Shown: piece by piece, positions 12,152 to 60,864 of the stretch
How the letters are laid out: every line of letters starts with the position of its first letter
Position numbering within the stretch: position 1 is the stretch's first letter
Assembly: GCA_001899065.1 (NCBI GenBank)
Contig: MKUZ01000017.1
Coordinates: 124,001-188,000, forward strand
Direction of reading: 5' to 3'
Length of the DNA stretch: 64,000 bases
Source of the DNA: Devosia sp. 66-22
GTDB lineage: Bacteria > Pseudomonadota > Alphaproteobacteria > Rhizobiales > Devosiaceae
Position numbers and translations under genes: made by a program
The notes under the pieces: model-generated
Seen by the model: only the letters and a program-made list of their open reading frames with translations
Told to the model about the DNA's origin: nothing
Databases searched by the model: none

Positions 12152-12607
12152 CTAGCCGCGCGTCGGCACGCGGAACACCAGGTAGATGAACGAGCCGTCG
12201 GCGTAGCTCATCCACCGTCCGCCATCCGCGAGGTAGAAGTCGTCAGGCCAGGTCCGCAACCGCTTTTCGATCCCCGGATAGCGGACGTAGGGCGACAGCA
12301 TGCCATCGGTCGAGTAGGTGCCGCTTGGCGTGGTCACGATCGTCACCCGCGAGGTGATGCCGTGGCCGATCTTCTTGACCACCTGCGTACGCTGCACGTC
12401 GGTCGAGACGCTCTCGTCGATGGTGAATTCGTAGTGACGGAAGAGTCGCGGGTCGACCGGCGCTGGGAACAGCTTGTCGATGGTCGCGAGCGCCATCTCG
12501 ACCGGCTCCTCGGCGATCGCGGCGATCTGCTGTGGCGCCAGGATGGTCAGCGCCAGGATGCCCCCGGCGAAGACGCCATACGAGATCGATCTGACGGCAT
12601 TGATCAT
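12152..12607 (-). CDS. Conserved-looking secreted or membrane-anchored protein, unknown function
   Basis: This 151-residue protein starts with a hydrophobic segment (YGVFAGGILALTILAPQQIA, about 10-29) that looks like a signal peptide with an Ala-rich cleavage region. The mature part is rich in charged and aromatic residues, with no Cys and no recognisable catalytic motif. It resembles other small alphaproteobacterial exported proteins, but I cannot name a family. Codon use fits the neighbours. It ends two bases after the stop of the convergent cell wall hydrolase gene, and its upstream neighbour is the HD-domain nucleotidase on the same strand. Confidence 0.7.
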   Translation of the reverse strand: MINAVRSISYGVFAGGILALTILAPQQIAAIAEEPVEMALATIDKLFPAPVDPRLFRHYEFTIDESVSTDVQRTQVVKKIGHGITSRVTIVTTPSGTYSTDGMLSPYVRYPGIEKRLRTWPDDFYLADGGRWMSYADGSFIYLVFRVPTRG

Positions 12608-12696
12608 GATGCCTCCGGCTGAAGCGCGTGCGTTAACCTCGCATCAACCATGTGGCATCGGCCTGCGTCAAAACGGAACAGGCGTTTACCTTAACT

Positions 12697-13317: not shown

Positions 13318-13343
13318 TCCCGCCCCCGAACGAAGCCGGAAAG

Positions 13344-14132: not shown

Positions 14133-14150
14133 CCAGTAAGGACTTCAGAC

Positions 14151-45672: not shown

Positions 45673-45696
45673 TGTCTTCTCCCTGTATGCCGGCGC

Positions 45697-46722
45697 CTAG
45701 GCGATGCCGGTCTCCTCAAAAATCGCTTCGACTTCGGCGTGGAGTGCGAGCACATCCACGCGCTGCTTGCCGCGCCGCGACTGAGCGCGGGCAATTCGAT
45801 CCATTGTCTGCTGCGTCATCGGCCGCGCCGCCTTGGCTGCCGCTTCGGTCGCGGCGAGGTCGCCCTGGCTGTGAAGGGCGATGTCGTAGCCGGCATCGAG
45901 CGCCGCGGTGACCCGCTCGGCCCAGGTGCCCGACAGGGCCTCCATGGTGAGGCAGTCGGTGATCAGCACGCCGTCATAGCCAATGTCGCGGCGGATGAGT
46001 TCGTGCACGATGGGCGATACCGAGGCGGGCCGCTCGCGATCGATCTGCGTGAAGATAAGGTGGGCGACCATCGCCCAGGGCGAGTCGCGCAGCGCCGCGA
46101 AGGGACGGAAATCTGTGTCGCGCATGTCCTCGACCGACGCGTCGACGACGGGGCAGTCGAAATGCGGATCGACCGTGACGCGGCCGTAGCCGGGGATGTG
46201 CTTGATGATCGGCAGCTCGCCCACTTCGAGCATGGCATCGACCACGACGCGCCCAAGGGCAATGACGAGGTCGGGATCGTCGCCAAAGGCGCGCTGGCCG
46301 ATGACGCCATGCGTCACCTTGCGCGCGAGATCGACAATGGGCGTGGTGCCGCTGTCGATGGTGAGCTCGGCCATCAGGCTGCCCATCGCCAGCGTCGACA
46401 GGCGCAGCGCGCGCGTGCCGAGCTCGAAATCCTTGCGGGCGAGGGCGCCGAAATCGCCCAGCGCGCGGAAGCTCGGCCATTTGCCGTTGTCGAGGCGCTG
46501 CACGCGCCCGCCTTCCTGGTCGATGAAGATGGGCGCGTCGGCGCGGCCGACCGCCTCGCGGAACTGCGCGCACAGGCGCCTCACCTGCTCGGGATTGTCG
46601 AGGTTGCGCTTGAACAGGAACAGGCCGCAGGGATTTGCCTCGCGGAAGAAGGCGACCTCACTGGCGGACAGGTCCAGTCCGGGCATACCGACGAACAAAG
46701 CGAGAGGTGCAGTAGAGGACAA
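45697..46722 (-). CDS. nagZ: Beta-N-acetylhexosaminidase, GH3 NagZ type
   Basis: This 341-residue GH3 enzyme cleaves terminal beta-linked GlcNAc, usually from muropeptides or chitobiose, in the cytoplasm; no signal peptide is visible. Motifs: FIDQEGGRVQRL, KHIPGYGRVTVDPHFDCPVV (usual K-H-[FI]-P-G-[HL]-G-x4-D-[ST]-H), and VLITDCLTMEAL with the nucleophile Asp in ITD. The DPH and YG variants deviate from the usual DSH and HG, but the catalytic His and Asp remain. The start TTG at 46722 has AGGAAG upstream and gives the family length; an in-frame GTG at 46812 adds a non-homologous leader. It heads the transporter operon. Confidence 0.88.
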   Translation of the reverse strand: MSSTAPLALFVGMPGLDLSASEVAFFREANPCGLFLFKRNLDNPEQVRRLCAQFREAVGRADAPIFIDQEGGRVQRLDNGKWPSFRALGDFGALARKDFELGTRALRLSTLAMGSLMAELTIDSGTTPIVDLARKVTHGVIGQRAFGDDPDLVIALGRVVVDAMLEVGELPIIKHIPGYGRVTVDPHFDCPVVDASVEDMRDTDFRPFAALRDSPWAMVAHLIFTQIDRERPASVSPIVHELIRRDIGYDGVLITDCLTMEALSGTWAERVTAALDAGYDIALHSQGDLAATEAAAKAARPMTQQTMDRIARAQSRRGKQRVDVLALHAEVEAIFEETGIA

Positions 46723-46820
46723 GGTCCGCTTCCTGGATTTGTCTGAGACCCATTGAACCCATCGCCAGCATCCGCAACCGATCGGGCAGCCAAAGGCGCC
46801 CGCAACGAGCACCCACCCGG

Positions 46821-46979: not shown

Positions 46980-47924
46980 ATGCGACTTGGAGTGATCGGC
47001 GCAGGCGGGATCGCGGTGCGGCATCTGGCGGCGCTCGAGCAGGAGGGCGGCGAGGGCGTCACGGTCGTTGCCCATCTGGCGCGCGGCCCCGAGCGCGCGG
47101 CCAGGGCGGCGGAGCGATTCGGCGGGGCTGCCTTCACCGATATCGACGCGTTCATCGGCGAGGGGCGGCCCGACGCCGTGCTGGTGACGCTGCCGCCGGC
47201 GGAACACGGGGCTGTCGAACGCGCGCTGATTGCGGCGCGCATCCCGATGCTCGTCGAAAAGCCGATCGGCCTCGACCTCGCGACGCCGCTCGCGATCGGC
47301 GCGGCGGCCGAGGCGAGCGGCCTCGTGGTCGCCGCGGGCTACAACTGGCGGGCGCTCGATACGCTCGACCGCGTGCGCGAGCTGCTCGATGAGACGCCGG
47401 CGCAGATGGTTCTCGGCCGCTTCCACATCGGCACGCCGGCGACGCCGTGGTGGCGGTTTGCGGCGCAGAGCGGCGGGCAGTTCCTCGAACAGGCGTGCCA
47501 TCTGGTCGACCTGGCGCGCCACCTCGTGGGCGAGGGCGAGCTGCTCGGAGCGGCCGGCGCTTTCGGACGGCTGCCCGAGTTCGCCGATGGCGACGTGGCG
47601 GGCACCAGCGCCGCCCTGCTCCGTTTCGGCGGCGTGCCGGGCGTGGTGACCGCCACCTGCCTGCTGCCGGGTGGTCCCGGCGCCGAGCTGCGGCTGATCT
47701 GTGCCGGACGGGAGATCGTCATCACGCTCGGCGGCGTGACGGTTGCCACCAATGGCGCCACGGAGAGTCTGGAGTCGCGTTCCAGTTCCTATGTGCGGCA
47801 GAACCTGAGGTTCTTTGCGGCCGTGAGGGCCGGGGAGCCGGACGCGGTGTTCTGCACCTACGCCGATGCGATCCGCACGCATCGGCTGTGCCTCGCCATC
47901 ACCGAGGCCGTCGCCGCGGCCTGA
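46980..47924 (+). CDS. Gfo/Idh/MocA family oxidoreductase
   Basis: This 314-residue NAD(P)-dependent dehydrogenase has a Rossmann N-terminus (LGVIGAGGIAVRHLAALE, about 3-20) and the family lysine motif LVEKPIGLDLA (about 92-102). The C-terminal domain contains FLEQACHLVDLARHLVG, with a His that commonly acts in catalysis. Such enzymes oxidise or reduce sugars, inositol, sugar acids or amino acids. The ATG at 46980 has GGAGG nine bases upstream. It points into the RraA–transporter cluster and is likely to feed the same pathway. Confidence 0.88.
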   Translation: MRLGVIGAGGIAVRHLAALEQEGGEGVTVVAHLARGPERAARAAERFGGAAFTDIDAFIGEGRPDAVLVTLPPAEHGAVERALIAARIPMLVEKPIGLDLATPLAIGAAAEASGLVVAAGYNWRALDTLDRVRELLDETPAQMVLGRFHIGTPATPWWRFAAQSGGQFLEQACHLVDLARHLVGEGELLGAAGAFGRLPEFADGDVAGTSAALLRFGGVPGVVTATCLLPGGPGAELRLICAGREIVITLGGVTVATNGATESLESRSSSYVRQNLRFFAAVRAGEPDAVFCTYADAIRTHRLCLAITEAVAAA

Positions 47925-47969
47925 TCTGTGACAGCATCGTCCTGAAATCGCATTGACCGCGACGATGGT

Positions 47970-48020
47970 TTGTGCTCACCATGTCAGCAATAACAAATAG
48001 CGTTCAGCATTGCAGAACGC
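47970..48020 (+). promoter_or_regulatory. Candidate promoter with overlapping near-palindromic operator
   Basis: TTGTGC at 47970-47975 and ACAAAT at 47993-47998, 17 bases apart, could form a promoter. Just after lies a 21-base near-palindrome at 48000-48020, GCGTTC-N9-GAACGC, with further symmetry in the middle (GCATTGC). A repressor bound there would block initiation. The IclR regulator encoded at 56433 is a candidate binder. Confidence 0.45.
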
Positions 48021-48022
48021 AG

Positions 48023-48799
48023 GTGCGGGAGGTTGAACTGTCCACAAAGCAAGCCCTGACGGCTGGCGAACTGCTGCGTTTGCGCCGGTTTTCCACCCCG
48101 ACAGTGTTCAACGGCTGGGAACAGGTGAGCCGCATCGACCGCCGGACAGTGGTCAACAAGCAGGACGTACGGGATTTCATGCCGCAGTTCGGCGCGATGG
48201 CCGGCTACGCGGTCACGCTCGAAGTGCAGCCGAGCAATCCGGACCATCTGCGCAACACGCCCGACGCGCCGCAGCGCTATCGCGAATATCTCGAGAGCAT
48301 GCCGGGGCCCAAGATCGTCGTCATCAAGGACGCCGACAGCCCCAATGTGATCGGCACCTATTTTGGCGAGGTCAATGCGAGCCTGCATCGCGCGCTGGGC
48401 TGCGTCGGCCTCATCACCGATGGCGGCGTGCGCGACGTCAACGAGATGGCCTCGATCGGCTTCAAGGCGCTCGCGGCGCGGCTGTGCGTGGGCCACGCCT
48501 ATGCCTGGCCGGTGCGCTGGGGCCACGAGGTCGAGGTCTTCGGCCTCAAGATCGCCTCGGGTCAGCTCGTTCACGCCGATCAGCACGGCTTCATGATCAT
48601 CCCCGAGGAGGATCAGAAGAAGGTGTTCGACGCGACGCTGTTCATGGACGGCAATGAGTGCACCTCGGTGATCGAGGCCACACAGATCCTGGCCGGCCGC
48701 TCGATGAGCGAAACGCGGGCGGCGCTGGTCGAAGCAGAACGGCGTTTCGGCGCCGCCGCACTCGAGACTTTCGGCAAGAAGGGCGAATGGTCCGCCTGA
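48023..48799 (+). CDS. RraA/HMG-CHA aldolase family protein
   Basis: The protein, about 258 residues, has the RraA-like fold shared by the RNase E inhibitor RraA and the aldolases that split 4-hydroxy-4-methyl-2-oxoglutarate or oxaloacetate. Motifs are FSTPTVFNGWEQVS near the start, ASLHRALGCVGLITDGGVRD with the conserved G-x-x-T-D-G-x-x-R-D (about 138-148), and LVHADQHGFMIIPEE. The last Asp and Arg bind the metal and carboxylate in aldolases. A catalytic role fits the catabolic context. The start is uncertain: the ATG at 47981 overlaps the putative promoter, so I chose GTG 48023; CTG 48038 with GGGAGG upstream is an alternative. Confidence 0.82.
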   Translation: MREVELSTKQALTAGELLRLRRFSTPTVFNGWEQVSRIDRRTVVNKQDVRDFMPQFGAMAGYAVTLEVQPSNPDHLRNTPDAPQRYREYLESMPGPKIVVIKDADSPNVIGTYFGEVNASLHRALGCVGLITDGGVRDVNEMASIGFKALAARLCVGHAYAWPVRWGHEVEVFGLKIASGQLVHADQHGFMIIPEEDQKKVFDATLFMDGNECTSVIEATQILAGRSMSETRAALVEAERRFGAAALETFGKKGEWSA

Positions 48800-48861
48800 C
48801 GATCGGGTTGCCGCCGCCGGCGGCGACCACAACGACCACAACGACCCAAGGGAGGGGCCCG

Positions 48862-50859
48862 ATGAAGACGACAATCAGACGACTTTTGGGTGCCGCAACG
48901 CTTGCGATCCTCGCGGGCGTCGGCTCCAGCATGGTAGCCACCGCCACTTACGCACAGACGCAGGAAATCGCCCTCGTCGACCAGTTCATGGCGTGGAACC
49001 TCGACGACTATGAAGCGGCCGGCACCAAAGTGCCCGACTTCAAGCAGTCGCCCAGCTTCGACGACGCTGTCGCCGCAGGCACGCTGCCGGCGCTCGCCGA
49101 CCGCCTGCCGGCACGCGAGGACGTGATGGTGGTGCGGCCGCGCGAATCGATCGGCACCTATGGCGGCACGATCCGCTACAACGCGACCAACCCGCAGTCC
49201 TTCGGCAATGTCGGCTACTCGGCCTGGGACGCGCATCTCGCCGGCGTCACCACGAACTGGGAAATTGTCTATCCCGACATCGCCCGCAGCATCGAGCTGG
49301 CCGCCGACAACATGTCGGCGACCGTCACGTTGCGCAAGGGCATGAAGTGGAGCGACGGCCAGCCGGTCACCGCCGACGACATCCTGTTCTTCTTCAACGA
49401 TATCGGCGGGCAGGGCGACCTGCCGCCGCTGCCGGGCAATCTGATCGTGGGCGGCAAGCCCATCGTCGTCGAAAAGATCGACGACCAGACGGTGAAGTTC
49501 AACTTCGCCGCGCCGAACCCGGCCTTCATCCTGTCGGTGGCGCGCGCCGAGCCCGGCTTCCCGCTGGCGCCCAAGCACTACCTGCAGAAGTGGCACAAGG
49601 ACTACAACGCGGACGCCGAGAAGATCGCGACCGAAGAGGGCTTCGCCTCCTGGGTCGACGCCTTCGTGTCGCACCAGAACGGCCAGACCGGCGACTTCCA
49701 GGTCGACGTCAACCTGCCGGTGCTCAAGCCCTGGATGCTGAGCGAGGTCGACCAGTTCGGCAACCAGTACTACCGCCGCAACCCGTACTACTGGAAGGTG
49801 GACACCGAGGGGAACCAGCTTCCCTATCTCGATGAGCAGGTCCGCATGCTCGTGTCCGACCCCGAAGTGGTCAAGCTCAACGTGCAGTCGGGCCAGCTCG
49901 ACTATGCCGACAAGTTCTCGCAGGCCGACCTGCCGGTGCTCAAGGCCGGCGAGCAGGCGGGCAACTACACCACCATGCTCTACACCGCCGACCTCGGCGC
50001 CATCGTGAAGTACCAGTTCAACATCACCACCAAGGATGATGTGCTGCGCGGGATCTTCAACGATGTCCGCTTCCGCGAGGCGATGTCGCTGGCCGTCAAC
50101 CGCCAGGAGATCAACGATACGATCTTCTTCGGCCTCGGCGTGCCGCGGCAGTGGGGCGTGTCGTCCAAGTCGCCGTTCTACGAAGACTGGATGGGCAGCT
50201 ACTTCTCGGACTACGACGTCGACAAGGCCAATGCGCTGCTCGACGAGATGGGTCTCACCAAGGGCGCCGACGGCATCCGCGTGCGGCCCGACGGACAGCC
50301 GCTGCGCGTGATCCTGCACGATGCGATCAACCGCGTGCCGCTGTCGGAACTGATGGCCGAGTACTGGACCGCGGTGGGCGTGTCGACGCAGGTCAACACC
50401 GTCACCCGCGAAACCTTCGCCCAGGCCGTCGCGGCGGGCGAGGTGCAGGCCTCGGTGTGGTTCGCCGACGTCGTGTCCGAAAAGGACATGTACACGCGTC
50501 CCATCTGGTTCCGTCCGCCCTATGGTCTTGACACCAACCCGGTGGGTGGCGGCTTGGCCTGGCGCAAGTGGCAGCTCAGCAACGGCGCTGAGGGCGAGGA
50601 ACCGCCGGCCGAGTACAAGGCCCAGCAGGACCTCGTGACCAAGTGGCAGGCTACGCCGCTCGGCTCGCAAGAGTACTACACGCTCGGCAAGGAAGTGGTC
50701 GGCAACACCGTCAAGCAGATGCTCCACATCGGCACGGTGGGCGAGGTGCCCTACGTCTACACCCGCTCCAACAAGCTCAAGAACTTCCCCGACAACAACA
50801 TGCTCTTCATCGACCACCTGCGTGGTGGCCATGCCGAGCAGTGGTACCTGACCAAGTAA
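48862..50859 (+). CDS. Large family 5 solute-binding protein
   Basis: This 665-residue periplasmic protein has a signal peptide (TIRRLLGAATLAILAGVGSS, ending in TATYA-QT at about 31) and an SBP_bac_5 fold with SIGTYGGTIRYNATNPQS (about 96-113), VTLRKGMKWSDGQPVTADDI and FNDVRFREAMSLAVNRQEIN. It is about 120 residues longer than typical peptide-binding relatives, as in the group that binds alpha-galactosides and other oligosaccharides. The start has GGAGGGG upstream. A strong hairpin follows the stop. In the 60-base gap before it lie a 14-base palindrome and two and a half copies of a 9-base repeat, CGACCACAA. Confidence 0.94.
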   Translation: MKTTIRRLLGAATLAILAGVGSSMVATATYAQTQEIALVDQFMAWNLDDYEAAGTKVPDFKQSPSFDDAVAAGTLPALADRLPAREDVMVVRPRESIGTYGGTIRYNATNPQSFGNVGYSAWDAHLAGVTTNWEIVYPDIARSIELAADNMSATVTLRKGMKWSDGQPVTADDILFFFNDIGGQGDLPPLPGNLIVGGKPIVVEKIDDQTVKFNFAAPNPAFILSVARAEPGFPLAPKHYLQKWHKDYNADAEKIATEEGFASWVDAFVSHQNGQTGDFQVDVNLPVLKPWMLSEVDQFGNQYYRRNPYYWKVDTEGNQLPYLDEQVRMLVSDPEVVKLNVQSGQLDYADKFSQADLPVLKAGEQAGNYTTMLYTADLGAIVKYQFNITTKDDVLRGIFNDVRFREAMSLAVNRQEINDTIFFGLGVPRQWGVSSKSPFYEDWMGSYFSDYDVDKANALLDEMGLTKGADGIRVRPDGQPLRVILHDAINRVPLSELMAEYWTAVGVSTQVNTVTRETFAQAVAAGEVQASVWFADVVSEKDMYTRPIWFRPPYGLDTNPVGGGLAWRKWQLSNGAEGEEPPAEYKAQQDLVTKWQATPLGSQEYYTLGKEVVGNTVKQMLHIGTVGEVPYVYTRSNKLKNFPDNNMLFIDHLRGGHAEQWYLTK

Positions 50860-50874
50860 TCCTCCCTGTGACCT

Positions 50875-50899
50875 GGCCGGGCGGGCTTCCTGCCCGGCC
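50875..50899 (+). terminator. Hairpin after binding-protein gene
   Basis: GGCCGGGC and GCCCGGCC form an 8-base-pair stem around GGGCTTCCT, 15 bases after the stop codon, without a T run. The position matches the hairpin after the binding-protein gene of the nagZ operon and suggests partial attenuation or mRNA stabilisation. Confidence 0.65.
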
Positions 50900-50949
50900 T
50901 CACCCGCTGCCCTGAATAGCCGGCGCGAAGGAGCGCCCTCCAAGCCAAA

Positions 50950-52146
50950 ATGATCCCACTCAGCCAAGTCAAATATCAGCCCGAACTCACGCGCACGTTC
51001 CTCGGCAGCCCCAGCGTCGTCCGCCTTCCCGACAATGCGCTCGTGGTGAGCCACGACTATTATGGCGTCGGCTGCCCGCGGAACCAGGAGTCCGAGGAGA
51101 GCCTCACCAGCATCTACCGCTCGGAGGATAATGGCGCGACCTGGGTGAACATCACCCACATCATGAACTGCTACTGGAGCACGCTGTTCTACCACAACGG
51201 CGCCCTCTACATCTTCGGCACGTCGCAGCAGTATGGCTCGATCGTGATCCGCCGCTCGGACGACGGCGGCTACACCTGGACGCATCCCACGGTGGACCAT
51301 CCCGAGAATGGCTGGCTGTTCCCCGGCGGCTTCTACCACGACGGTCCGAACTATCATTGCGCCCCAGTGGCCGTGACCATCCACAACGGCCGCATCTACA
51401 AGGCCTTCGAGGACTGCACGCCCTGCGTGTGGGGAACGGGGTTCCAGGCCTGCGTCGTGTCGGCGCCGGTCGACGCCAATCTGCTCGATGCCGCCAACTG
51501 GACGATGAGCAACAAGATTCCGTTCGACCCCGCCTGGGTGCCTAAGGAGTGGGGCCGCACACTGAAGCCCGGCTGGCGCGAGGGCAACGTCGTCGCCGAT
51601 CCCGACGGGCAATTGTGGGATATCATGACCTTCGAGGCCGGCCCGCTCGAAGCCGAGAAATCGGCGCGCATCAAGATCGAGGACGACGGCAAGAAGATCA
51701 GCTTCGATCCGGCGACCGGCTATTTCGACCTGCCGGGCTGCAAGGCCAAGCTGACCATCCGCCGCGACCCGGTGACCGGTGAATATCTCACCATCGGCAA
51801 TGCGCTCGACGACCACGACATCCTGCGCAAATGGGCCCGCGAGGAAGACGACAGCTTCACGCGCTTCCACAAGGACCACTCGATGCGGCAGCGCAACAAG
51901 GTCTATGTGCTGGCGTCCAAGGATCTGTGGAACTGGCGCCGGGTGAAGCAGCTGATCCGCGACGAGACGGGGCTCAAGCCCGAGGACTCGATCCGCCTCA
52001 GCGGCTTCCAGTACACCGACTGGCAGTTCGACGGCGACAACGACATTATCTTCGCCGTGCGCAGCGCCTATCGCGGCGCCGCCAATTTCCACGACGCCAA
52101 CCGCATCTTCTACGGCACCATCCCGAACTTCCGGGACCTGCTCTAG
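50950..52146 (+). CDS. Sialidase-fold (BNR/Asp-box) protein, cytoplasmic
   Basis: This 398-residue protein has a six-bladed beta-propeller signature. Two clear Asp boxes are visible: SEDNGATW at 58-65 and SDDGGYTW at 103-110. The entry region FLGSPSVVRLPDNALVVSHD (17-36) resembles the start of sialidases but lacks the Arg of the usual [FY]RIP motif, so a standard sialic-acid-binding arginine triad is not evident. There is no signal peptide, so it acts on imported material. A role as a glycosidase for an acidic or other sugar is inferred from fold and context. The start at 50950 follows AAGGAG at a rather long distance. Confidence 0.8.
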   Translation: MIPLSQVKYQPELTRTFLGSPSVVRLPDNALVVSHDYYGVGCPRNQESEESLTSIYRSEDNGATWVNITHIMNCYWSTLFYHNGALYIFGTSQQYGSIVIRRSDDGGYTWTHPTVDHPENGWLFPGGFYHDGPNYHCAPVAVTIHNGRIYKAFEDCTPCVWGTGFQACVVSAPVDANLLDAANWTMSNKIPFDPAWVPKEWGRTLKPGWREGNVVADPDGQLWDIMTFEAGPLEAEKSARIKIEDDGKKISFDPATGYFDLPGCKAKLTIRRDPVTGEYLTIGNALDDHDILRKWAREEDDSFTRFHKDHSMRQRNKVYVLASKDLWNWRRVKQLIRDETGLKPEDSIRLSGFQYTDWQFDGDNDIIFAVRSAYRGAANFHDANRIFYGTIPNFRDLL

Positions 52147-52153
52147 CTGACGA

Positions 52154-52177
52154 GGGCGGGACGGCAACGTCCCGCCC
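52154..52177 (+). terminator. Hairpin after sialidase-fold gene
   Basis: A perfect 9-base-pair stem, GGGCGGGAC / GTCCCGCCC, with loop GGCAAC lies in the 55-base gap before the first permease gene. No T run follows, so it may attenuate or stabilise the mRNA. Confidence 0.6.
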
Positions 52178-52201
52178 GCCTCCGCCGAACGAGGGACATC
52201 G

Positions 52202-53197
52202 ATGCTATCCTATATCGTGCGCCGCCTCGCCTATATGGTCGTCGTGCTCGTGCTCGTCTCGGTGGTGTGCTTCTATATCATCAACCTGCCGCCGGGCAGC
52301 TTCATCGAGACCTTCGCCACCCAGCTCGACGCCGCCGGCTCGCCGGCCACCCAGGCGCAGCTCGACTTCCTCACGGTGCGCTACGGCCTCGATCAGCCGC
52401 TCCATGTGCAATACTGGAACTGGATCGTGCCGCTCGTGACGCAGGGCGACTACGGCTACTCGTTCGAATGGCAGCAGCCGGTGTGGACACTGCTCGCCGA
52501 CCGGCTGTGGCTCACCATCATCGTGTCGCTCGTCTCGATGGTGTTCGTCTATGTCGTGTCGATCCCGGTGGCGCTCTATTCGGCGACGCACCAGTACTCG
52601 GTCGGCGACTACAGCTTCAGCCTGCTCGGCATCATCGGCCTCGCCGTGCCGAACTTCCTGCTCGCCCTCGTGCTGCTCGTCGCCTCGGCGCGGCTGTTCG
52701 GCGTGACCCCCACGGGACTGTTCTCGCCCGAATACATCACCGCGCCCTGGAGCTGGGAGAAGGTGTGGGACCTGATGATCCACCTGCCGGTGCCGGTCAT
52801 CGTCGTTGGTCTCGCCGGCACCGCCGCGACCATTCGCATCCTTCGCTCGCAACTGCTCGACGAGTTCCAGAAGCAATATGTGATCACCGCGCGCGCCAAG
52901 GGCGTACCCGAGGGGCGGCTGCTGATGAAGTATCCCTTCCGCGTGGCGCTCAACCCGATCATCTCGACGGCGGGGCACCTGCTGCCCGACATCGTCTCGG
53001 GCTCGACCATCGTCGCCATCGTGCTGGGCCTGCCCACCATCGGCCCGCTGCTGCTGCGCGCCATCGTCGCGCAGGACACCTATGTCGCCGCGAGCTGCCT
53101 GATGCTGCTGGGCGTGCTCACCGTGGTGGGCGTCGTGATGTCCGATATCCTGCTCACGATGCTCGATCCGCGCGTGCGCATGAGCCGGGCCAATTGA
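52202..53197 (+). CDS. ABC transporter permease, DppB type
   Basis: This 331-residue membrane protein starts MLSYIVRRLAYMVVVLVLVS, the standard first helix, and has SVVCFYIINLPPGSFIETFA, followed by RYGLDQPLHVQYWNWI. The coupling-helix region is YVITARAKGVPEGRLLMKYP (about 225-244), contacting the ATPases, and it ends near MLDPRVRMSRA. It is eleven bases from the second permease gene. Confidence 0.94.
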   Translation: MLSYIVRRLAYMVVVLVLVSVVCFYIINLPPGSFIETFATQLDAAGSPATQAQLDFLTVRYGLDQPLHVQYWNWIVPLVTQGDYGYSFEWQQPVWTLLADRLWLTIIVSLVSMVFVYVVSIPVALYSATHQYSVGDYSFSLLGIIGLAVPNFLLALVLLVASARLFGVTPTGLFSPEYITAPWSWEKVWDLMIHLPVPVIVVGLAGTAATIRILRSQLLDEFQKQYVITARAKGVPEGRLLMKYPFRVALNPIISTAGHLLPDIVSGSTIVAIVLGLPTIGPLLLRAIVAQDTYVAASCLMLLGVLTVVGVVMSDILLTMLDPRVRMSRAN

Positions 53198-53207
53198 GGA
53201 GAGCGCC

Positions 53208-54332
53208 ATGACCACAGCTCTCGAAACTTCCGCCGCCGCCGTTCCGCAGGGCGGGCGCGTGCTGAGCCGCGGCCAGCTCTTCTGGGCCAAGTTCACCCGG
53301 CACAAGGCGGCACTGGTCTCGCTCTGGTTCATCGTGGCGCTCTATGCGCTCGTGCTGATCGCCGAAGTCGTCGCGCCTTACGGGCCGTTCCAGCGCCACA
53401 CGCAGCATCTGCTCGCGCCGCCGACCGGCATCCAGTTCGTGGATGCCGAAGGCGGCTTCCATCTGCGGCCCTTCGTCTATGGGCTCAAGAACGAGCTCAA
53501 CCGCGAAACCTTCCAGCGCGAATACGTGGTGGACACCGCGCAGCGCTACGACATCTCGCTGTTCGTCAAGGGCGAGCCGTACCAGCTGTTCGGCGTCATT
53601 CCGACGAACATCCATCTTTTCGGTGTCGAGGGCGATGGGCGCATCTTCCTCGCGGGGACCGATCAGCTCGGGCGCGACCTGTTTTCGCGCATGCTGTTCG
53701 GCGCACGAACCTCGCTGTTCGTGGGGCTGATCGGTCTTGCCATCGGCTTCGGGCTCGGCCTCTTCTTCGGCGGCATCTCGGGCTATTTCGGCGGCGCGAT
53801 CGACAATTTCGTGCAGCGCCTCACCGAGTTCCTGCAGTCGCTGCCGACGCTGCCGCTGTGGATGGCGCTGGCGGCGCTCGTGCCTGCCGACTGGAGTCCG
53901 ACGCAGGTCTATTTCGGTATCTCCACAGTGCTCGCCGTGGTGGGCTGGACGACGCTTGCCCGCGTGGTGCGCGGCAAGCTGCTCAGCCTGCGCGAGGAAG
54001 ACTATGTGATGGCCGCCAAGGTGTCGGGCGTCAGCGAGGCCAAGATCATCACCACGCATCTGCTGCCCGGCTTCATGAGCTATCTCATCGTGCACCTGAC
54101 GCTGGCGGTGCCGCAGATGATCCTGGGCGAGGTGGCGCTGAGCTTCCTCGGGCTCGGCCTCCGGCCGCCGGCGGTGAGCCTGGGCACGCTGCTGATCGAT
54201 TCGCAGAACATCCAGACCGTGACCATCAGCCCCTGGCTGCTGGTGCCCGGCGGCCTCGTCATCCTGATCGTGGTGGCGTTCAGCTTCCTCGGCGACGGCC
54301 TGCGCGACGCCGCGGACCCGTATCGGAGCTAG
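53208..54332 (+). CDS. ABC transporter permease, DppC type, with large periplasmic insert
   Basis: This 374-residue permease has its first helix near LWFIVALYALVLIAEVV and a periplasmic loop of about 100 residues before the conserved RIFLAGTDQLGRDLFSRMLF (about 145-164). Most DppC proteins have a far shorter loop, but it is typical of the transporters that use large binding proteins like the one upstream. The coupling region is DYVMAAKVSGVSEAKIITTH, and LSFLGLGLRPPAVSLGTLL is the C-terminal family motif. The ATPase gene starts three bases downstream. Confidence 0.93.
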   Translation: MTTALETSAAAVPQGGRVLSRGQLFWAKFTRHKAALVSLWFIVALYALVLIAEVVAPYGPFQRHTQHLLAPPTGIQFVDAEGGFHLRPFVYGLKNELNRETFQREYVVDTAQRYDISLFVKGEPYQLFGVIPTNIHLFGVEGDGRIFLAGTDQLGRDLFSRMLFGARTSLFVGLIGLAIGFGLGLFFGGISGYFGGAIDNFVQRLTEFLQSLPTLPLWMALAALVPADWSPTQVYFGISTVLAVVGWTTLARVVRGKLLSLREEDYVMAAKVSGVSEAKIITTHLLPGFMSYLIVHLTLAVPQMILGEVALSFLGLGLRPPAVSLGTLLIDSQNIQTVTISPWLLVPGGLVILIVVAFSFLGDGLRDAADPYRS

Positions 54333-54335
54333 CCC

Positions 54336-55406
54336 ATGAGCAACCCGCACACATCAGCTCCCGAGACAGCGACCCGGCCCCTGGTCGAGGTCAAGAATTT
54401 GCGCGTCGTGCTGCCGCTGATCGAGGGCAACCTCACGGCGTCGGACGGCGTGAGCTTCACCATCCCCGAAGGCAAGACGCTGGGGCTCGTGGGCGAGTCC
54501 GGCTGCGGCAAGACCATCACGGCCCAGTCGATCCTCAAGATCGCGCCGCGCAATTCCCGCACCAGCGGCGAGATCCTGCTCCACTACCCCGACCGTCCCC
54601 CGGTCGACATCGTTTCGCTCGGCCCCAAGGACGACGAACTGCTCTCGATCCGCGGCGGCGAGGCGGCGATGATCTTCCAGGAGCCCATGACCTCGTTCTC
54701 GCCGGTGCACAGCATCGGCAACCAGTTGCTCGAGACGATCTACCTGCACCGCACGCGCGACAAGGCGAAGGCGCATGAGATCGCGGTGGCGATGCTGCAG
54801 AAGGTGGGGATCGCCGATCCGGCGGCGGCGCTGCGCAAGTACCCGCACGAATTCTCGGGCGGCATGCGGCAGCGCGCGATGATCGCCATGGCGCTCGCAT
54901 CGCAGCCGCGCCTGCTGATCGCCGACGAGCCGACCACGGCGCTCGACGTGACGGTGCAGGCGCAGGTGCTGCGGCTGATGCGCGACCTGCAGCGCGACCA
55001 GGGCATGGCCATCCTCTACATCTCGCACGACCTCGGCGTGATCGCCCGCATGGCCGACGAAGTGGCGGTGATGTACATGGGCTCGATCGTCGAATACGCC
55101 GCGGTGCGCGACCTGTTCCATGCGCCCAAGCATCCCTACACCAAGGGCCTGATGGCCTCGGTGCCTCGTATCGGCAAGAAGTCCGGCGAGCCGCTCGAAT
55201 CGATCAAGGGCAACGTGCCCGTACCCATCAACAAGCCGGTGGCCTGCGGGTTCTTCCCGCGTTGCCCCGTGGCGATCGCAGGCGTGTGCGACAAGGCGGT
55301 GCCGCCGCTGGTCGATGTCACGCCGGGCCATCGTTCGGCCTGTTTCCTCTATCCCGAAGTCGTGGCCGCTGCCGGCCTGCCGCAGGGAGCTGCCAATGTC
55401 CACTGA
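54336..55406 (+). CDS. Opp/Dpp-family ABC transporter ATPase (DppD-like)
   Basis: This 356-residue ATPase has Walker [17 protein letters not shown] (about 52-67), signature [18 protein letters not shown], Walker [14 protein letters not shown] and switch [13 protein letters not shown]. The C-terminal oligopeptide-type domain has the Cys-rich motif [19 protein letters not shown], which in some relatives binds a metal or an iron-sulfur cluster. Its last 11 bases overlap the start of the partner ATPase. Confidence 0.94.
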
Positions 55407-56430
55407 GACCGTGCTCAGCGTCCGCAACCTCAAGAAGTACTACCCCATCGAGAGTGGCGCCCTGCGCCGCGTCACCGGCCATGTGAAGGCGGTCGACGAT
55501 GTGAGCTTCGACCTGGCGCGCGGCGAGGTGCTGGGGCTGGTGGGCGAGTCCGGCTGCGGCAAGACCACGCTCGGCCGCTGCATCGTGCGCGCCATCGATC
55601 CCACCGGCGGCGCGGCGCGGCTGGTGATCGGCGAGGACGACACCGATGTCGACCTGGCCACCGCCAGCAAGGGCGAGCTGCGGCGGCTGCGGCGGCACAT
55701 GAACATGGTGTTCCAGGACCCGTTCTCGTCGCTGTCGCCGCGCATGACGGTGCGCGACATCATCGGCGAGCCGCTGCGCGCCCAGGGCCTGCCGGCGAAA
55801 GAGATCGCCGGGCGGGTCGAGCGGATCGCCGAGCTGTGCGGCCTCAACACGGCGCACCTCTCGCGCTATCCCAACGCCTTTTCGGGCGGGCAGCGGCAGC
55901 GCGTCTGCATCGCCCGCGCACTGATCAGCCAGCCGGTGCTGATCGTGGCGGACGAACCGGTGTCGGCGCTCGACGTGTCGATCCAGGCGCAGATCCTCAA
56001 CCTGCTGCAGCGGCTGCAGCGCGAGCTGAACCTCAGCCTCATCTTCGTGGCGCACGATCTGAGTGTGGTCGAGCACATCGCCGATCGGGTGGCGGTGATG
56101 TATGTGGGCAAGATCATCGAGCTGGCGCCCACCGAGAGCTTGTACAAGCGTCCCCGGCACCCCTATACCGAAGCATTGATGTCGGCGGTGCCAAAACCCG
56201 ATCCGGATCTGAGGGACGAAACCATTATTCTGAGCGGCGAGGTTGCAAGCCCCGCCAATCCACCCAGTGGATGTTACTTCCACCCCCGCTGCCGCTATGC
56301 TTCGGAAATCTGTAAAACGGCAGCACCGCCATTGCGCGAAACCAGTTCCGGCCACTGGTCGGCCTGCCACTTCGCCGACGTGCTGGAGCTCAAGGGGGTC
56401 GAGGCGGTTGAAGAGCGTGCGGATGGCTGA
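55396..56430 (+). CDS. Opp/Dpp-family ABC transporter ATPase (DppF-like)
   Basis: This 344-residue ATPase is the second half of the nucleotide-binding pair. Walker A is [16 protein letters not shown], the signature [18 protein letters not shown], Walker [14 protein letters not shown] and switch [13 protein letters not shown]. The tail [19 protein letters not shown] is the Cys-rich C-terminal domain of the OppDF family. The ATG at 55396 gives [17 protein letters not shown]; an earlier in-frame start is inside the preceding gene. The IclR gene starts two bases downstream. Confidence 0.94.
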
Positions 56431-56432
56431 CC

Positions 56433-57245
56433 GTGACCGATAAAGAACGCAGATCGACGACCAACAAGAGCCTGGGCAAGGCAGTCCGCATGCTCAAGCT
56501 GTTCAGCGCGCAGGAGCCGCGGCTCTCGCTGGCCGAGATCAGCCTGCGGCTCGACATGCCCAAGAGCACGACGCATGCGATCCTCCGCTCGCTGGTGGCC
56601 GAGGGACTGATCGAGAAGGTGGGCGGCGAGGCCTATGCGTTGGGCACCGCGATCCTCGCGCTGTCGCAATCGGTGCGCGTCAACGTCGAGATCCGCGACC
56701 GCGCGGCGCCGCATGTGCGGGCGCTGGCCGACCTCGCGGGAGAGTCGGTGTATCTCACGCTGCGCGAGGGTGACCGCATCCTCTATATCTATGCCGTCGA
56801 GTCCTCACGCCGGCTGATTGCCCGCACGGCGGTGGGCGACCGCATGCCGATGCACTGCACCGGCGTGGGCAAGGCCATCCTCGGCCATCTGCCGGAAGCG
56901 GAGGCGCGCGGCATCCTCGAGCGCGCCGGCATGCCGCGCGTGACGCCCAACACCATCACCGAGATGGAGGAACTGATGGAGGAGCTGCGGGCGATCCACG
57001 AGCGCGGCTATTCCTATGACGACTCCGAGAACGAAGTCGGCAACTACTGCGTCGGCGCCCCGATCTTCGGCGCGCAGGGGCAGGTGATCGGCGGCTGCTC
57101 GATCGCCGGCACCGACCCTCAGATCATCGGCGCCCGGGCGGGCGAACTGTCCCGGGCGCTGATTTCCGCCTGCCTCGATATCTCGCGCAACCTCGGCTAC
57201 GTGCCCGCTTCGGTCTTCCGCGGCGCGTACGCGGCGGTGCGCTGA
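56433..57245 (+). CDS. IclR family transcriptional regulator
   Basis: This 270-residue regulator has an N-terminal winged helix-turn-helix (SLAEISLRLDMPKSTTHAIL, about 32-51) and a C-terminal effector domain, with GDRMPMHCTGVGKAILGHLP (about 135-154) and the ligand-binding region with Cys in NYCVGAPIFG. IclR proteins control catabolic pathways and bind small organic acids. Its place inside the cluster, between the transporter and the lyase gene, makes it the likely regulator of this pathway. The start is GTG, two bases after the ATPase stop. The near-palindrome at 48000-48020 is a candidate target. Confidence 0.93.
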   Translation: MTDKERRSTTNKSLGKAVRMLKLFSAQEPRLSLAEISLRLDMPKSTTHAILRSLVAEGLIEKVGGEAYALGTAILALSQSVRVNVEIRDRAAPHVRALADLAGESVYLTLREGDRILYIYAVESSRRLIARTAVGDRMPMHCTGVGKAILGHLPEAEARGILERAGMPRVTPNTITEMEELMEELRAIHERGYSYDDSENEVGNYCVGAPIFGAQGQVIGGCSIAGTDPQIIGARAGELSRALISACLDISRNLGYVPASVFRGAYAAVR

Positions 57246-57259
57246 CCGGAACCAGAACC

Positions 57260-58141
57260 ATGACTGAACAGCGCGTTCGCGACACCGCCCTAGGAGGCAT
57301 CATCGCGGCCATCCTCACCCCCGTTCACGCCGACCTGTCGATCGATACCGCACGCCTGCTGGCGCATGCCAGAAAGCTCATCGCCGACGGCTGCACGCGC
57401 GTGTCGACCTTCGGCAGCACAGGCGAGGGCGTGTCCTTCTCGAGCGACCAGAAGAACGCCGCCAACCAGGCGCTGCTTGCCGGCGGGGTCCGCCCCGACC
57501 AATTGCTGCCCGCCATCATGGTGAGTGCCGTCGATACCGCGGCGCGGGAACTCAAGGACATCGCCGCGCTGGGCTGCCGCCATGCGCTGGTGCTGCCGCC
57601 CTTCTACTATCGCAACGCCACGCTCGAAGGGCTGGTCTCGTACTTCGAGGCGGTATTCGAGCGGGCCGGGCGGCCGGCGGTTTCGTTCGTGCTCTACAAC
57701 ATTCCCGCCATGAGCGGCATCACCATCACCCACGACTTCGTGCGTGCGCTGCAGGCCGGAAAGGGCGCGCCGATTGCGGGGATCAAGGACTCGACCGGCG
57801 ACCTCGCGAGCGGCCTCGCCTTCGTGCGGGCCTTCCCCGAGCTCAGCATCTTCACCGGCGACGACCGCGTGCTGCCACACCTGCTCGACGCCGGCGGCGC
57901 CGGCATGATCGGCGGCCTGCCCAACCTCTATGCCAGCGACCTCGCCGCCCTCTACCGGACACGCGCCGGCGATGAGGCGGTGCGGCTCGCCGCGCTGGCG
58001 GCCGAACGCATCGCACAGATCGACGCGACCGGCGGCCTGCTGGCGCTCAAGGCCGGTCTCGCGGACCAGAACACCGATCCAGCGTGGCGGCGGGCGATGC
58101 CGCCGCTCGGTACCGAGTTCCGCGCGGGGCACGCGAAGTGA
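57260..58141 (+). CDS. DapA family lyase/dehydratase
   Basis: This 293-residue TIM-barrel class I lyase uses a Schiff base. Lys176 in PIAGIKDSTGDLASG is the imine lysine, Tyr146 in FVLYNIPAMSG the catalytic tyrosine, and FGSTGEGVSFSS (51-62) the carboxylate-binding loop. Family members include dihydrodipicolinate synthase, N-acetylneuraminate lyase, KDG aldolase and L-2-keto-3-deoxyarabonate dehydratase. The lack of a lysine-pathway neighbour and the catabolic setting argue for a 2-keto-3-deoxy acid as substrate. It overlaps the next gene by four bases (GTGA). Confidence 0.92.
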   Translation: MTEQRVRDTALGGIIAAILTPVHADLSIDTARLLAHARKLIADGCTRVSTFGSTGEGVSFSSDQKNAANQALLAGGVRPDQLLPAIMVSAVDTAARELKDIAALGCRHALVLPPFYYRNATLEGLVSYFEAVFERAGRPAVSFVLYNIPAMSGITITHDFVRALQAGKGAPIAGIKDSTGDLASGLAFVRAFPELSIFTGDDRVLPHLLDAGGAGMIGGLPNLYASDLAALYRTRAGDEAVRLAALAAERIAQIDATGGLLALKAGLADQNTDPAWRRAMPPLGTEFRAGHAK

Positions 58142-58878
58142 GCGACAAGGCAGCCGACGCGGCCGATCTGCTCGCCGCCACCTCGCACAGCGGCGGCACG
58201 ATCGACGGCCTGCCGGACGCGCTGCGGCCGGGAACGCCGGCCGAGGCAATGGCGATCCAGTCGGCGTTCATCCGGCGGCATGGCAGCTGCGGGTGGAAAG
58301 TCGGCCCGCACCCATCGGGCTCGGGCTGGTGCGGCGCACCGCTGCGCGGCAGGTCGGCTCAGCCGACGCCGCATCGCCTGTCGTATGACAGGGCGGCGGC
58401 GATGCGGATCGAAGTCGAAGTGGCGATCGTGCTCGGCAGCGACCTGCCGGCGGCGGCAAGCGCGGCCGATGTGCGCACCGCGATCGCGAAGACACATATT
58501 GCGCTCGAGCTCTTCCGCTCGAGCTACCCCGACCCCAAGCAGCAGGACTTCCCGTCGCTGCTCGCCGACAGCCTCAGCAACGCAGGCGTGGTCCTGGGCG
58601 AGGGCAGGGCGCCGCGCGAGGGCGACGATTTCGGCGCGCTCGAGATGACACTGGTGCACAACGGCGACACGCTCGCCGGCACCGGCAAGGGCGCCGCCAT
58701 GGACGTGATCGTCGAGATGCTGGGCTGGCTGTCAGGCTATGCCGCGGAGGTCGGCTCGGGGCTCAAGCGCGGCGACGTGATCATCACCGGGGCGCGGCTC
58801 GGACCGCTGTCGGTGGCTGAGGCAGGGACCTACCGGGCGAGCTGCGCGCTGGGCGGGGTCGAGCTCGAGGTCGCGTGA
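58138..58878 (+). CDS. 2-keto-4-pentenoate hydratase-like (MhpD/FAH superfamily) protein
   Basis: This 246-residue enzyme resembles MhpD-like hydratases and 4-oxalocrotonate decarboxylases. Metal ligands of the fumarylacetoacetase superfamily appear as the E-x-E pair in MRIEVEVAIVLG (about 88-99) and a third Glu in HIALELFRSSY. HSGGTIDGLPDALRP at the N-terminus and GDVIITGARLGPLSVAEAG at the C-terminus fit this family. It probably acts on a 2-keto acid or enol downstream of the DapA-type step. The GTG start at 58138 overlaps the DapA stop. A bidirectional terminator follows. Confidence 0.85.
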   Translation: MSDKAADAADLLAATSHSGGTIDGLPDALRPGTPAEAMAIQSAFIRRHGSCGWKVGPHPSGSGWCGAPLRGRSAQPTPHRLSYDRAAAMRIEVEVAIVLGSDLPAAASAADVRTAIAKTHIALELFRSSYPDPKQQDFPSLLADSLSNAGVVLGEGRAPREGDDFGALEMTLVHNGDTLAGTGKGAAMDVIVEMLGWLSGYAAEVGSGLKRGDVIITGARLGPLSVAEAGTYRASCALGGVELEVA

Positions 58879-58917: not shown

Positions 58918-60864
58918 CTACTTCATCAGGCCCGGCGAGACCGAGCCCTGCAGCTGGCGCTGGAAGATGATATAGGTGACGAGCACCGGCAGCACCGTGA
59001 TCACCACGGCGGCGAAGAGAGCGCCGAAGTTGACGGCGTAGCCCGCCTGCGAGGCGAACGACGCCATGCCCTGCGACAGCACGTAGTTCTTGGCATTGGT
59101 GTTGAGCGCGATGGGCAGGAGGAACTGGTTCCACAGGCCCAGGAAGTTGAAGATCGCGACCGACGCCATGCCCGGCGTCGCCATAGGCAGCATGATCTGG
59201 AAGAAGATACGCCACGGACCGCACCCGTCGAGCGCTGCCGCTTCGGCGACTTCCTGCGGCAGCGTCTTGAAGAACGCATAGAGGAAGAACACCGTGAAGG
59301 GCAGGGCGAACGCCACATAGGTGACGATCAGGCCCGGCAGGGTGTTGAGGATGCCGAAGTTCTTGAGCGTCATGAACAGCGGCACGACGGCGAGGAAGAT
59401 CGGGAACGTCAGTCCGGCGAGCATCAGATAGTAGATGATCTGGCTGCCCTTGAACTCGTAGCGCGCCAGATAGTACGCGCACATCGCGCCCAGCAGCATC
59501 ACGATCACCAGCGCGCTGCCAACCACGATCACCGTGTTGACGAAGTAGGTCCCGATGCTCGCGGTGGTCCACGCCGACACGTAGTTTTCGAAGTTGAAGC
59601 TCGTGGGCAGCGAGAAGGGCGATCCGAAGATCTGCTGCGTGGTCTTGAACGACGACATCAGCACCCACAGCAGCGGTGCGCAGATGATGACGACCCAGGC
59701 GATGAGCGCAATGTGCGCGATGGTCGCCACAGTCCGGTCGGTGAAGAACGACGGCTTGGACGAGCGCTCGATGCGCGGCGGGCGCGACGAGCCCGGCGCA
59801 CTGGGGGCGTGGGTGGAGTCGGCGGCGCGCAGGGCGGCGAGGGCAGCCTTCACATCGGTGGTGTAGCGGGGCGCGGCAGTGGTCGGCGCAACTTTGGGCG
59901 GCTTCTTCTCGCCGGTGAGCCAGAAGACCAGGAAGACGATGGCCGCAAAGGCCAGCGTGATGATGGCAAGAGTGGCACCCATCGAGGTGGCGTAACCGAA
60001 CTTGCCCTTCTTGAAGGCCGTGTTGAGCAGATGCTGAGAGATCACGACCGTCGAGTTGGCGGGGCCGCCGACAGGATTGAGCGCCTGCATGTAGACGAAG
60101 GCGTCGAGGGCGAGGATGCCGATATAGACATAGGCCGTGCGGATGGTGTCGCGGATCATCGGCAGGGTGATGCTGATGGCCGTGCGGAAGCGGCCGGCGC
60201 CATCGACGCGCGCCGCCTCATAGACCTCGGACGGGATGCCTTTGATCGCGGCGATGAACAGCACCATGTAGAAGCCGACCAGCGACCACGCGATCACGAA
60301 GATCGAAGCGCCCATGGCGGTGCGTTCATTGCCCAGCCAGGCAAAGGACTTGAAGAAGTCGAACCCCATCGCGGTCAGGATGCCGTTCAGCAACCCGTTT
60401 GAGGGGTCGTACATCTGCGCCCACAGTATGCCGATGACGATGGCGGGCACCGTGTAGGGGAAGAACGAGATGATCCGGTAGAGATCGGAGTTCTTGAGGC
60501 CGCTGACTTCGCCGCGGCTCGCGCCGCCGACGGTGACCAGAGTGGCCAGCGTCAGGGACAGGATGATGACGAGCGGCGGCAGGATCAGCACCAGAACGAT
60601 GCTGTTGGTCACGGCCTTGATGAAGACCGGGTCCTGCGTCAGGGCGAGGTAGTTGGACAGGCCAACGAAGTTCATCGACTTCGAAAAGCCCGTCCAATCC
60701 GTGAGCGAGTAGTAGAAGGCTTGCACGAACGGCAAGATCACGAAAATTACATATATCGCGAGCGGAAGACCGAGGAACATCAGCGTGAAGCTGATGTTCT
60801 CGAACTTCGGCAATGCCCACCGCGGCTTGGCGGCGGACGCTCCTGCCATCGTGCCTACCGTCAC
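58918..60864 (-). CDS. Fused MalF-MalG-type carbohydrate ABC permease
   Basis: This 648-residue protein joins two complete carbohydrate permease subunits that are normally separate. The N-terminal half (1-318) begins with a first helix near SFTLMFLGLPLAIYVIFVIL and has its own EAA loop (EAARVDGAG at 216-224, ending LP at 234-235). A Pro/Ala/Ser-rich charged linker (about 319-375) joins it to a second half starting with helix IALIAWVVIICAPLLWVLMS and its own EAA loop (EAAALDGCG at 541-549, ending LP at 559-560). Both halves have six helices. The GTG start overlaps the stop of the binding-protein gene (GTGA); MAGASAAKPR at 60849 is an alternative. No frameshift or internal stop is needed to read it. 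Confidence 0.92.
   Translation of the reverse strand: MTVGTMAGASAAKPRWALPKFENISFTLMFLGLPLAIYVIFVILPFVQAFYYSLTDWTGFSKSMNFVGLSNYLALTQDPVFIKAVTNSIVLVLILPPLVIILSLTLATLVTVGGASRGEVSGLKNSDLYRIISFFPYTVPAIVIGILWAQMYDPSNGLLNGILTAMGFDFFKSFAWLGNERTAMGASIFVIAWSLVGFYMVLFIAAIKGIPSEVYEAARVDGAGRFRTAISITLPMIRDTIRTAYVYIGILALDAFVYMQALNPVGGPANSTVVISQHLLNTAFKKGKFGYATSMGATLAIITLAFAAIVFLVFWLTGEKKPPKVAPTTAAPRYTTDVKAALAALRAADSTHAPSAPGSSRPPRIERSSKPSFFTDRTVATIAHIALIAWVVIICAPLLWVLMSSFKTTQQIFGSPFSLPTSFNFENYVSAWTTASIGTYFVNTVIVVGSALVIVMLLGAMCAYYLARYEFKGSQIIYYLMLAGLTFPIFLAVVPLFMTLKNFGILNTLPGLIVTYVAFALPFTVFFLYAFFKTLPQEVAEAAALDGCGPWRIFFQIMLPMATPGMASVAIFNFLGLWNQFLLPIALNTNAKNYVLSQGMASFASQAGYAVNFGALFAAVVITVLPVLVTYIIFQRQLQGSVSPGLMK

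Follow-up and report, generated by a model that had tools for sequence, protein, structure and literature searches.

Operons for sialic acid use combine a sialidase-fold propeller, a dedicated importer and a lyase of the DapA/NanA superfamily. The same three parts occur together in a single run of eleven plus-strand open reading frames (ORFs) at positions 46980-58878 of the window, a stretch of 64,000 nucleotides from Devosia sp. 66-22 (assembly GCA_001899065.1, contig MKUZ01000017.1, positions 124,001 to 188,000). Compared to sialic acid operons, this cassette (Table 1) has no NanE or NanK, its proposed uptake through an Opp-type ATP-binding cassette (ABC) importer would bring in the substrate intact for hydrolysis in the cytoplasm, and it differs also in the arginine set of the propeller and the sugar motif of the lyase. 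Some Bacteroidota relatives pair a symporter and a DapA-type gene with an apparently exported propeller. Sialidases and KDNases of glycoside hydrolase family 33 (GH33) resemble the window propeller in fold, catalytic Glu and Tyr and third Arg; the window protein differs in having Gly19, Thr227 and Glu47 (for Asp), and its identity to the listed structural matches is 10-15%. GH181 sialidases (Amuc_1547) have an altered catalytic site with Gln for the nucleophile Tyr and two arginines kept (PMC10067855). An altered arginine triad in a sialidase-type propeller is thus common to both, but the Gln of GH181 is not found here, as Tyr355 is invariant in the window's family. The eleven-gene set was not found described in the open-access literature searched, mainly titles and abstracts, with subscription literature mostly outside. 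The cassette looks like an undescribed system of the sialic-acid-like import-cut-cleave type, based on an uncharacterised propeller family. The best-supported reading, which on balance we consider probable, is that it is a self-contained catabolic unit: an acidic oligosaccharide would be imported intact, cut in the cytoplasm and passed to a Schiff-base lyase.

An earlier note, made from the letters of this DNA, had described the genes as one coherent run. The run is real: its order is kept in six genomes of two families (the window's own, G202, G404, G380, G382 and, from the other family, G040), and its domains are recognized by Pfam. All eleven genes are present in five of these genomes and ten in G380, which has no last gene. 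The genome G382 and locus L018 were counted once, since L018 and L115 are the same contig. Of 297 genomes sampled from the order, 3 have the propeller gene, and so do 5 of 136 genomes of the family. Recurrence of one gene order in six genomes and two families, for a gene this sparse in the order, puts the cassette beyond chance. Among the 136 family genomes, close orthologues of the propeller (89-100% identity, self included), the substrate-binding protein (SBP, 78-100%) and the RraA-like protein (74-100%) occur in the same five; the next-best SBP is 39% and the next-best RraA relative 48% identical (the latter in G259). Within the cassette genomes, identity to the window is 86-95% for the propeller, 83-92% for the permeases (87-92% OppB type, 83-88% OppC type), 74-85% for IclR, 73-88% for RraA, 63-73% for DapA and 57-69% for Gfo/Idh. 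The flanks differ between the six genomes by eye. The eleven genes are a real, mobile-looking cassette with the last gene as its loosest part, and it has probably moved horizontally between lineages. Viral contigs were searched and nothing was found in them.

The SBP_bac_5 protein, two BPD_transp_1 permeases and two ATPases with oligo_HPY domains place the importer in the Opp/Dpp family by Pfam and NCBIfam, an assignment of family and not of substrate. Such genes would also be expected if the run were an operon for peptide import that happened to lie next to unrelated metabolic genes. We find this hardly credible, as importer and enzyme genes keep one order in six genomes and propeller and importer stand together in eight Chloroflexota loci. 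Moreover, NCBIfam cut-offs for peptide importers are not reached in the matches listed by the SBP, the permeases or the first ATPase (25 of 184 listed for the ATPase), nor by the second ATPase (25 of 189 matches listed). With the enzyme set fixed, peptide import alone is unlikely.

The propeller protein encoded at 50950 matches only BNR_2 in Pfam (2e-5, 24.3 bits; curated cut-off 31.4). Its relatives come from a scan of genome contigs, of which the best 80 of 113 were kept, from 79 loci in many phyla, so that the family is larger than this sample; 77 of the 80 match BNR_2 at E 0.01. AlphaFold2 with the 80 sequences gives pLDDT 93.6 and pTM 0.93. The best matches of the model in the PDB by Foldseek are a GH93 arabinanase (top), GH33 sialidases and KDNases, with TM scores by query of 0.44-0.61 among the 50 matches listed. 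The sialidase fold suggested by the earlier note is thus supported by both programs, even though the sequence stays below the Pfam cut-off, and we are confident in predicting a sialidase-type six-bladed Asp-box beta-propeller. A search of solved sequences gave no close relative, and a profile search placed best only partial sialidase and sortilin matches (best 6e-9). The protein is a member of an uncharacterised sialidase-superfamily family that occurs in many phyla.

Glu211, Tyr355 and Arg315 are present in 80 of 80 propeller sequences; further conserved arginines stand at 101, 148, 271 and 371. Two YRIP-type proteins from loci L022 and L090, both alignable to the solved sialidase 1eur along almost their full length, served as GH33 anchors; Glu211 and Arg315 align to the catalytic Glu and the third Arg of GH33 in all three MAFFT modes, and Tyr355 to the GH33 Tyr in two. 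A Tyr nucleophile in a Tyr/Glu pair is a mark of ketoside hydrolases. True sialidases were also sought: PF13088 found seven proteins in the class, one of them from the window's genome, of which six lacked YRIP by eye, and PF14873 gave one match in the phylum, which was left unused. The window protein starts with MIPLSQ and has no hydrophobic stretch. By a crude hydrophobicity scan such a stretch precedes the match in 43 of 79 relatives, all of them more distant, and in none of the 28 loci L018-L045. We therefore read the propeller as probably cytoplasmic in the window's branch.

The earlier note had set beforehand, as a test that could refute its proposal, whether the sialidase-fold protein, the transporter and the DapA-type lyase are co-conserved. 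They are in the six genomes; in the survey of 136, propeller and SBP go together, and a DapA-type gene accompanies the propeller in 10 of the 79 loci. Specifically, searching all 79 loci (1.28 Mb) with a DapA profile gave 12 genes of this type in those 10, all 12 on the strand of the propeller; with the cassette locus L018 left out, 11 genes in 9 loci remain. The expected number is 2.4 copies (Poisson P 7e-6 for 12 and 2e-4 for 10), an expectation taken from the density in the window genome alone (8 in 4.36 Mb), while the loci span other phyla, are related to each other and in several cases end at contig ends; the profile itself was built partly from genes that it then found. Loci with both genes belong to Pseudomonadota, Chloroflexota, Bacillota, Bacteroidota and Verrucomicrobiota. 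On the tree the linkage needs 8 changes, which means that it recurs.

The genes around the propeller were called with a simple longest-ORF script that misreads some high-GC loci, and only a part of the identities assigned by eye was checked by Pfam or NCBIfam. In all eight Chloroflexota loci (L019-L026) an Opp-type importer, an SBP and the propeller stand together; the DNA of L019 begins within the second permease gene. The OppB-type permease is 65-66% identical to the window's in seven of them (L020-L026) and the OppC type 68-74% in all eight. Homologues of IclR (51%) are present in L019, on the opposite strand, and in L025, where the order ATPase-IclR-DapA is as in the window, with the DapA gene directly after IclR and not orthologous to the window's. 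Six loci (L019, L025, L047, L068, L069, L083) have one type of DapA with the motif YECPxPY, 14-21% identical to the window lyase. L019 also has five tandem propeller genes and two DapA-type genes at 3051-13217. Importers vary with phylum: they are of Opp type in Alphaproteobacteria and Chloroflexota and by eye of sugar-ABC type in two Bacillota loci, and in Bacteroidota there are, by eye, sodium:solute symporters or SusC/D-like genes (the symporter of L078 was confirmed by domain). In L078 (Bacteroidota, 9923-14984) a propeller, a DUF3748 protein, a DapA-type gene and a sodium:solute symporter lie in a row. It looks as if propeller and DapA are the recurring core and the importer is the changeable part.

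Conserved blocks of sialate lyases, including a sugar-binding block with Asp-Glu, are described in PMC4016182. The window lyase keeps GSTGE, the Tyr in YNIP (YNIPAMSG) and the Lys in GIKD, that is, the carboxylate block, Tyr and Schiff-base Lys of NanA. In the comparison with NanA that the earlier note had proposed, the two active sites agree in these blocks; in the sugar motif they do not, since the Arg of FTGDDR replaces the Glu of the Asp-Glu block in all six cassette orthologues. Against NCBIfam TIGR00674 (DapA proper) the lyase scores 101.7 bits, below the cut-off of 206.15. Relatives at E 1e-48 occur in 3 of 337 genomes of the class, two besides the window's own (34 and 38% identity). 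Closer ones are on plasmids of Alloyangia and Qingshengfaniella (47-50% over three quarters of the query, 45-46% over the whole) and of Rhizobium (49%). The lyases of the former two share the sugar motif FTGDDR with the window's, and their module differs from the cassette in having a tripartite ATP-independent periplasmic (TRAP) importer, a GH78 rhamnosidase and GntR where the cassette has an Opp importer, propeller and IclR. On these two plasmids (L107, 6809-12285; L108, 6852-12245) the TRAP importer, DapA-type, GntR and alpha-L-rhamnosidase (GH78) genes keep one order.

An ordinary operon for a sialic acid, N-acetylneuraminic acid (Neu5Ac) or Kdn, with an unusual importer could account for a sialidase fold, a DapA/NanA-superfamily lyase and a Gfo/Idh protein in one place. 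We consider it very improbable. By their domains, the eleven genes include no NanE, NanK or NagA/NagB and so do not match a standard nan operon, in line with the earlier remark that the combination fits no named pathway, and neither the arginine triad nor the sialate lyase sugar motif is present. Moreover, contig 24 of the same genome (L163, 36000-54000) has a fusion of NanE with a ROK (NanK-type) protein, a DapA-family lyase, a sugar ABC importer by eye and a Gfo/Idh protein together; this is probably a sialic acid cluster of its own, apart from the cassette, and makes it unlikely that the cassette is the sialic acid operon of this genome. A standard operon of this kind was rejected on the absence of NanE and NanK from the cassette and on the presence of this other cluster.

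Several observations weigh against the reading of intact import, cytoplasmic hydrolysis and Schiff-base cleavage. In the propeller, the position of the first sialidase Arg (YRIP) holds Gly19 (Gly in 78 of 80 sequences). The second, position 227, is Arg in 69 of 80 and Thr in 11, those of the window's clade, so that Arg315 is the only one of the three arginines kept in the window protein. Acid recognition must therefore differ from that of sialidases. In the third MAFFT mode Tyr355 is off by two residues, the judgement on export comes from the crude scan, and we know of no activity for any member of the family. HHalign against GH33 gave 60 misregistered columns at probability 47, and a forced global run gave probability 27, although, read by eye, it agrees with MAFFT on the placement of Glu211, residue 227 and Tyr355; this resemblance was rejected as proof, and the claim is carried by fold search and motif placement. 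No DapA gene was found in 69 of the 79 propeller loci, or in 6 of the 8 Chloroflexota loci, in the DNA covered. The FAA_hydrolase (MhpD-like) gene, which the earlier note had included in the set, is present in five cassette genomes, but at 40-55% identity in the four others it is the least conserved, is absent in G380 and may be accessory rather than core. Control by IclR is suggested by gene position; a search of the DNA preceding the first gene gave no shared operator site. With these points included, the best reading of the propeller is still a predicted sialidase-type hydrolase with altered acid recognition.

The tree explains Thr227 by a single change (SH-aLRT 99). Its clade consists of the window, L018, the eight Chloroflexota loci and one Spirochaetia locus, and an Opp-type importer is tied to 10 of the 11 members, the Spirochaetia locus having none. 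Such importers are not exclusive to the clade, since one (26-51% identical to the window's) adjoins the propeller of L041 (Chloroflexota, Arg at 227), and L028 has one Opp-type ATPase.

The relatives of the SBP in the PDB include 5ipw (9e-86) and the pectin-binding SPH1118, 7ver (8e-69). SPH1118 of Sphingomonas sp. A1, the best-studied relative and one with a known ligand, binds galacturonides through arginines (PMC9314435); its residues in contact with the ligand are Asn53, Arg57, Arg438, Arg466, Arg496 and Trp594. It hints at pectic acids, and the cassette might serve the use of uronic-acid (pectin-like) oligosaccharides: the propeller would cut the linkage of a uronate or of a neutral sugar and not a ketoside, with the DapA-type enzyme acting late as a 2-keto-3-deoxy-acid aldolase or keto-deoxy-aldarate dehydratase. 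A GH93 arabinanase as the top fold match and the loss of two sialidase arginines would agree with this, the Arg in FTGDDR would suit a second carboxylate, and the RraA relative of G259 lies by eye near an apparent tripartite-tricarboxylate importer, although its neighbours give no clear pathway. On the other hand, all 80 sequences have the Tyr/Glu pair that is typical of ketoside hydrolases, the cassette has no uronate isomerase or pectinase gene, and the relation to SPH1118 is distant. We hold this explanation to be possible but rather unlikely.

A glycoside of a 2-keto-3-deoxy acid as the substrate is hinted at by the Tyr/Glu pair, the recurrent DapA linkage and the neighbours of distant propeller relatives, which are genes for synthesis of 3-deoxy-D-manno-octulosonic acid (Kdo); the absence of two of three arginines, the lyase motif and the galacturonide-binding SBP relative speak against it. 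Burkholderia relatives of the propeller in three records (L012, L080, L087) adjoin kdsD-kdsB-kdsC-kdsA, and L012 has capsule genes as annotated. A sister propeller of Sinorhizobium chiapasense, 25% identical to the window's and with Arg at the second position, adjoins a CMP-Kdo synthetase gene. On this Sinorhizobium plasmid (L105, 8977-11208) the two lie near rpoN, nifQ, asnB and methyltransferase genes. These neighbours hint at Kdo-type acids and suggest, without proving it, that the wider propeller family acts on Kdo-type ketosides; they are biosynthetic settings, and a dedicated depolymerase is common in capsule clusters.

Salvage of Kdo or a related ulosonate such as Dha would make the propeller a Kdo-glycosidase and the DapA-type enzyme a Kdo aldolase yielding pyruvate and D-arabinose, to be followed by the Gfo/Idh, RraA-like and FAA_hydrolase proteins. 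To our knowledge Kdo aldolase is an enzyme without a known gene. The recurrent DapA linkage and the KDNases among the structural matches are consistent with this, and the plasmid lyase relatives with a TRAP importer and alpha-L-rhamnosidase would suit the Rha-Kdo unit that occurs in rhamnogalacturonan II. However, kds genes were found near 3 of the 82 loci searched and near no other, including Paraburkholderia L077; the Burkholderia relatives are about 39% identical, have Arg at position 227 and lie in a biosynthetic setting; and the cassette has no arabinonate dehydratase and lacks two of the three carboxylate arginines. Kdo salvage thus appears unlikely. A still bolder and somewhat less likely form of it would take the propellers as a new family of glycosidases for Kdo or like ulosonates, the cassette as the first genetically defined Kdo salvage with DapA as the missing aldolase gene, and the Thr227 clade as a cytoplasmic branch coupled to intact import.

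Returning to intact import followed by cytoplasmic cleavage, we propose the following course, in which activity, site, step order and chemistry are all putative. The SBP_bac_5 protein and the Opp-type importer would take up the oligosaccharide whole. The cytoplasmic propeller would then hydrolyse it with the Tyr355/Glu211 pair, as retaining sialidases do, and the Schiff-base enzyme of the DapA superfamily would cleave or dehydrate the released 2-keto(-3-deoxy) sugar acid. The Gfo/Idh, RraA-like and, where present, FAA_hydrolase proteins may oxidise and split the remaining fragment, and IclR may respond to a pathway intermediate. The RraA-like protein contains DGGVRD, whose Arg-Asp may be the catalytic motif of aldolases with the RraA fold; the protein does not reach NCBIfam cut-offs. 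Like the FAA_hydrolase protein, whose nearest is the 2-keto-4-pentenoate hydratase 1sv6, it has only distant solved relatives. For FAA_hydrolase relatives on two plasmids and an RraA relative on one, no shared setting was found. If true, this course would define an uncharacterised sialidase-superfamily family in many phyla and a compact pathway for an acidic sugar that may so far lack known catabolic genes, built on an importer-propeller unit common to Alphaproteobacteria and Chloroflexota. A few assays of the propeller, lyase and binding protein would test it.

Table 1. Genes of the cassette in the window, in order, with the basis of each assignment
Feature	Position	Strand	Basis
Gfo/Idh/MocA oxidoreductase, first gene	46980..47924	+	Pfam PF01408 (3e-19) / PF22725
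RraA-like protein (HMG/CHA-aldolase type)	47972..48799 as ORF; true start probably downstream of ~48016	+	PF03737 4e-19
SBP_bac_5 binding protein, N-terminus signal-like by eye	48862..50859	+	PF00496 3e-59
Sialidase-fold (Asp-box propeller) protein, proposed cytoplasmic retaining hydrolase	50950..52146	+	AlphaFold2, Foldseek, conservation
ABC permease, OppB type	52202..53197	+	PF00528 (BPD_transp_1) / PF19300
ABC permease, OppC type	53208..54332	+	PF00528 (BPD_transp_1) / PF12911
ABC ATPase, OppD type	54336..55406	+	PF00005 (ABC_tran) / PF08352 (oligo_HPY)
ABC ATPase, OppF type, start picked by eye	55396..56430	+	PF00005/PF08352; NCBIfam OppF/DppF-type hits below cut-off
IclR-family regulator	56433..57245	+	PF09339/PF01614
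DapA/NanA-superfamily Schiff-base lyase or dehydratase	57260..58141	+	PF00701 (DHDPS) 4e-28; nearest PDB 3b4u
FAA_hydrolase (MhpD-like) enzyme, last gene	58138..58878	+	PF01557 7e-8; nearest PDB 1sv6

The junctions between these genes measure, in order, 47, 62, 90, 55, 10 and 3 bases, an overlap of 11, then 2 and 14 bases and an overlap of 4. With the ORFs as listed, nine of ten are 70 bases or less (the SBP-propeller junction of 90 is the exception) and four are overlapping or at most 3 bases, in line with the spacing of 0-70 bases for most genes, and the overlaps, given before. The gene calls of the earlier note were correct overall, apart from two start sites. The OppF-type ATPase starts at about 55396 instead of the ORF start at 55315, which leaves the 11-base overlap with the OppD-type gene. 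In a reading based on 47987, the RraA orthologue of G040 meets a stop at residue 8 and another at residue 10, so that the true RraA start is probably later than 47972 and the first gap therefore likely longer than 47 bases. For the RraA match of G380 one TGA was flagged in the search; direct reading shows none.

Just upstream of the cassette, on the minus strand (44011-46812), there is a second SBP_bac_5 gene together with a glycosidase that has a GH3 N-terminal domain and is NagZ-like by eye. Downstream, also on the minus strand (58918-60864), a frame of 648 residues with two BPD_transp_1 stretches is apparently a fusion of two sugar-ABC permeases, and an SBP_bac_1 gene lies beside it at 60861-62234. 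Further away in the window, at 15540-16958 on the plus strand, an RTX-type calcium-binding repeat protein with seven repeat stretches is encoded.

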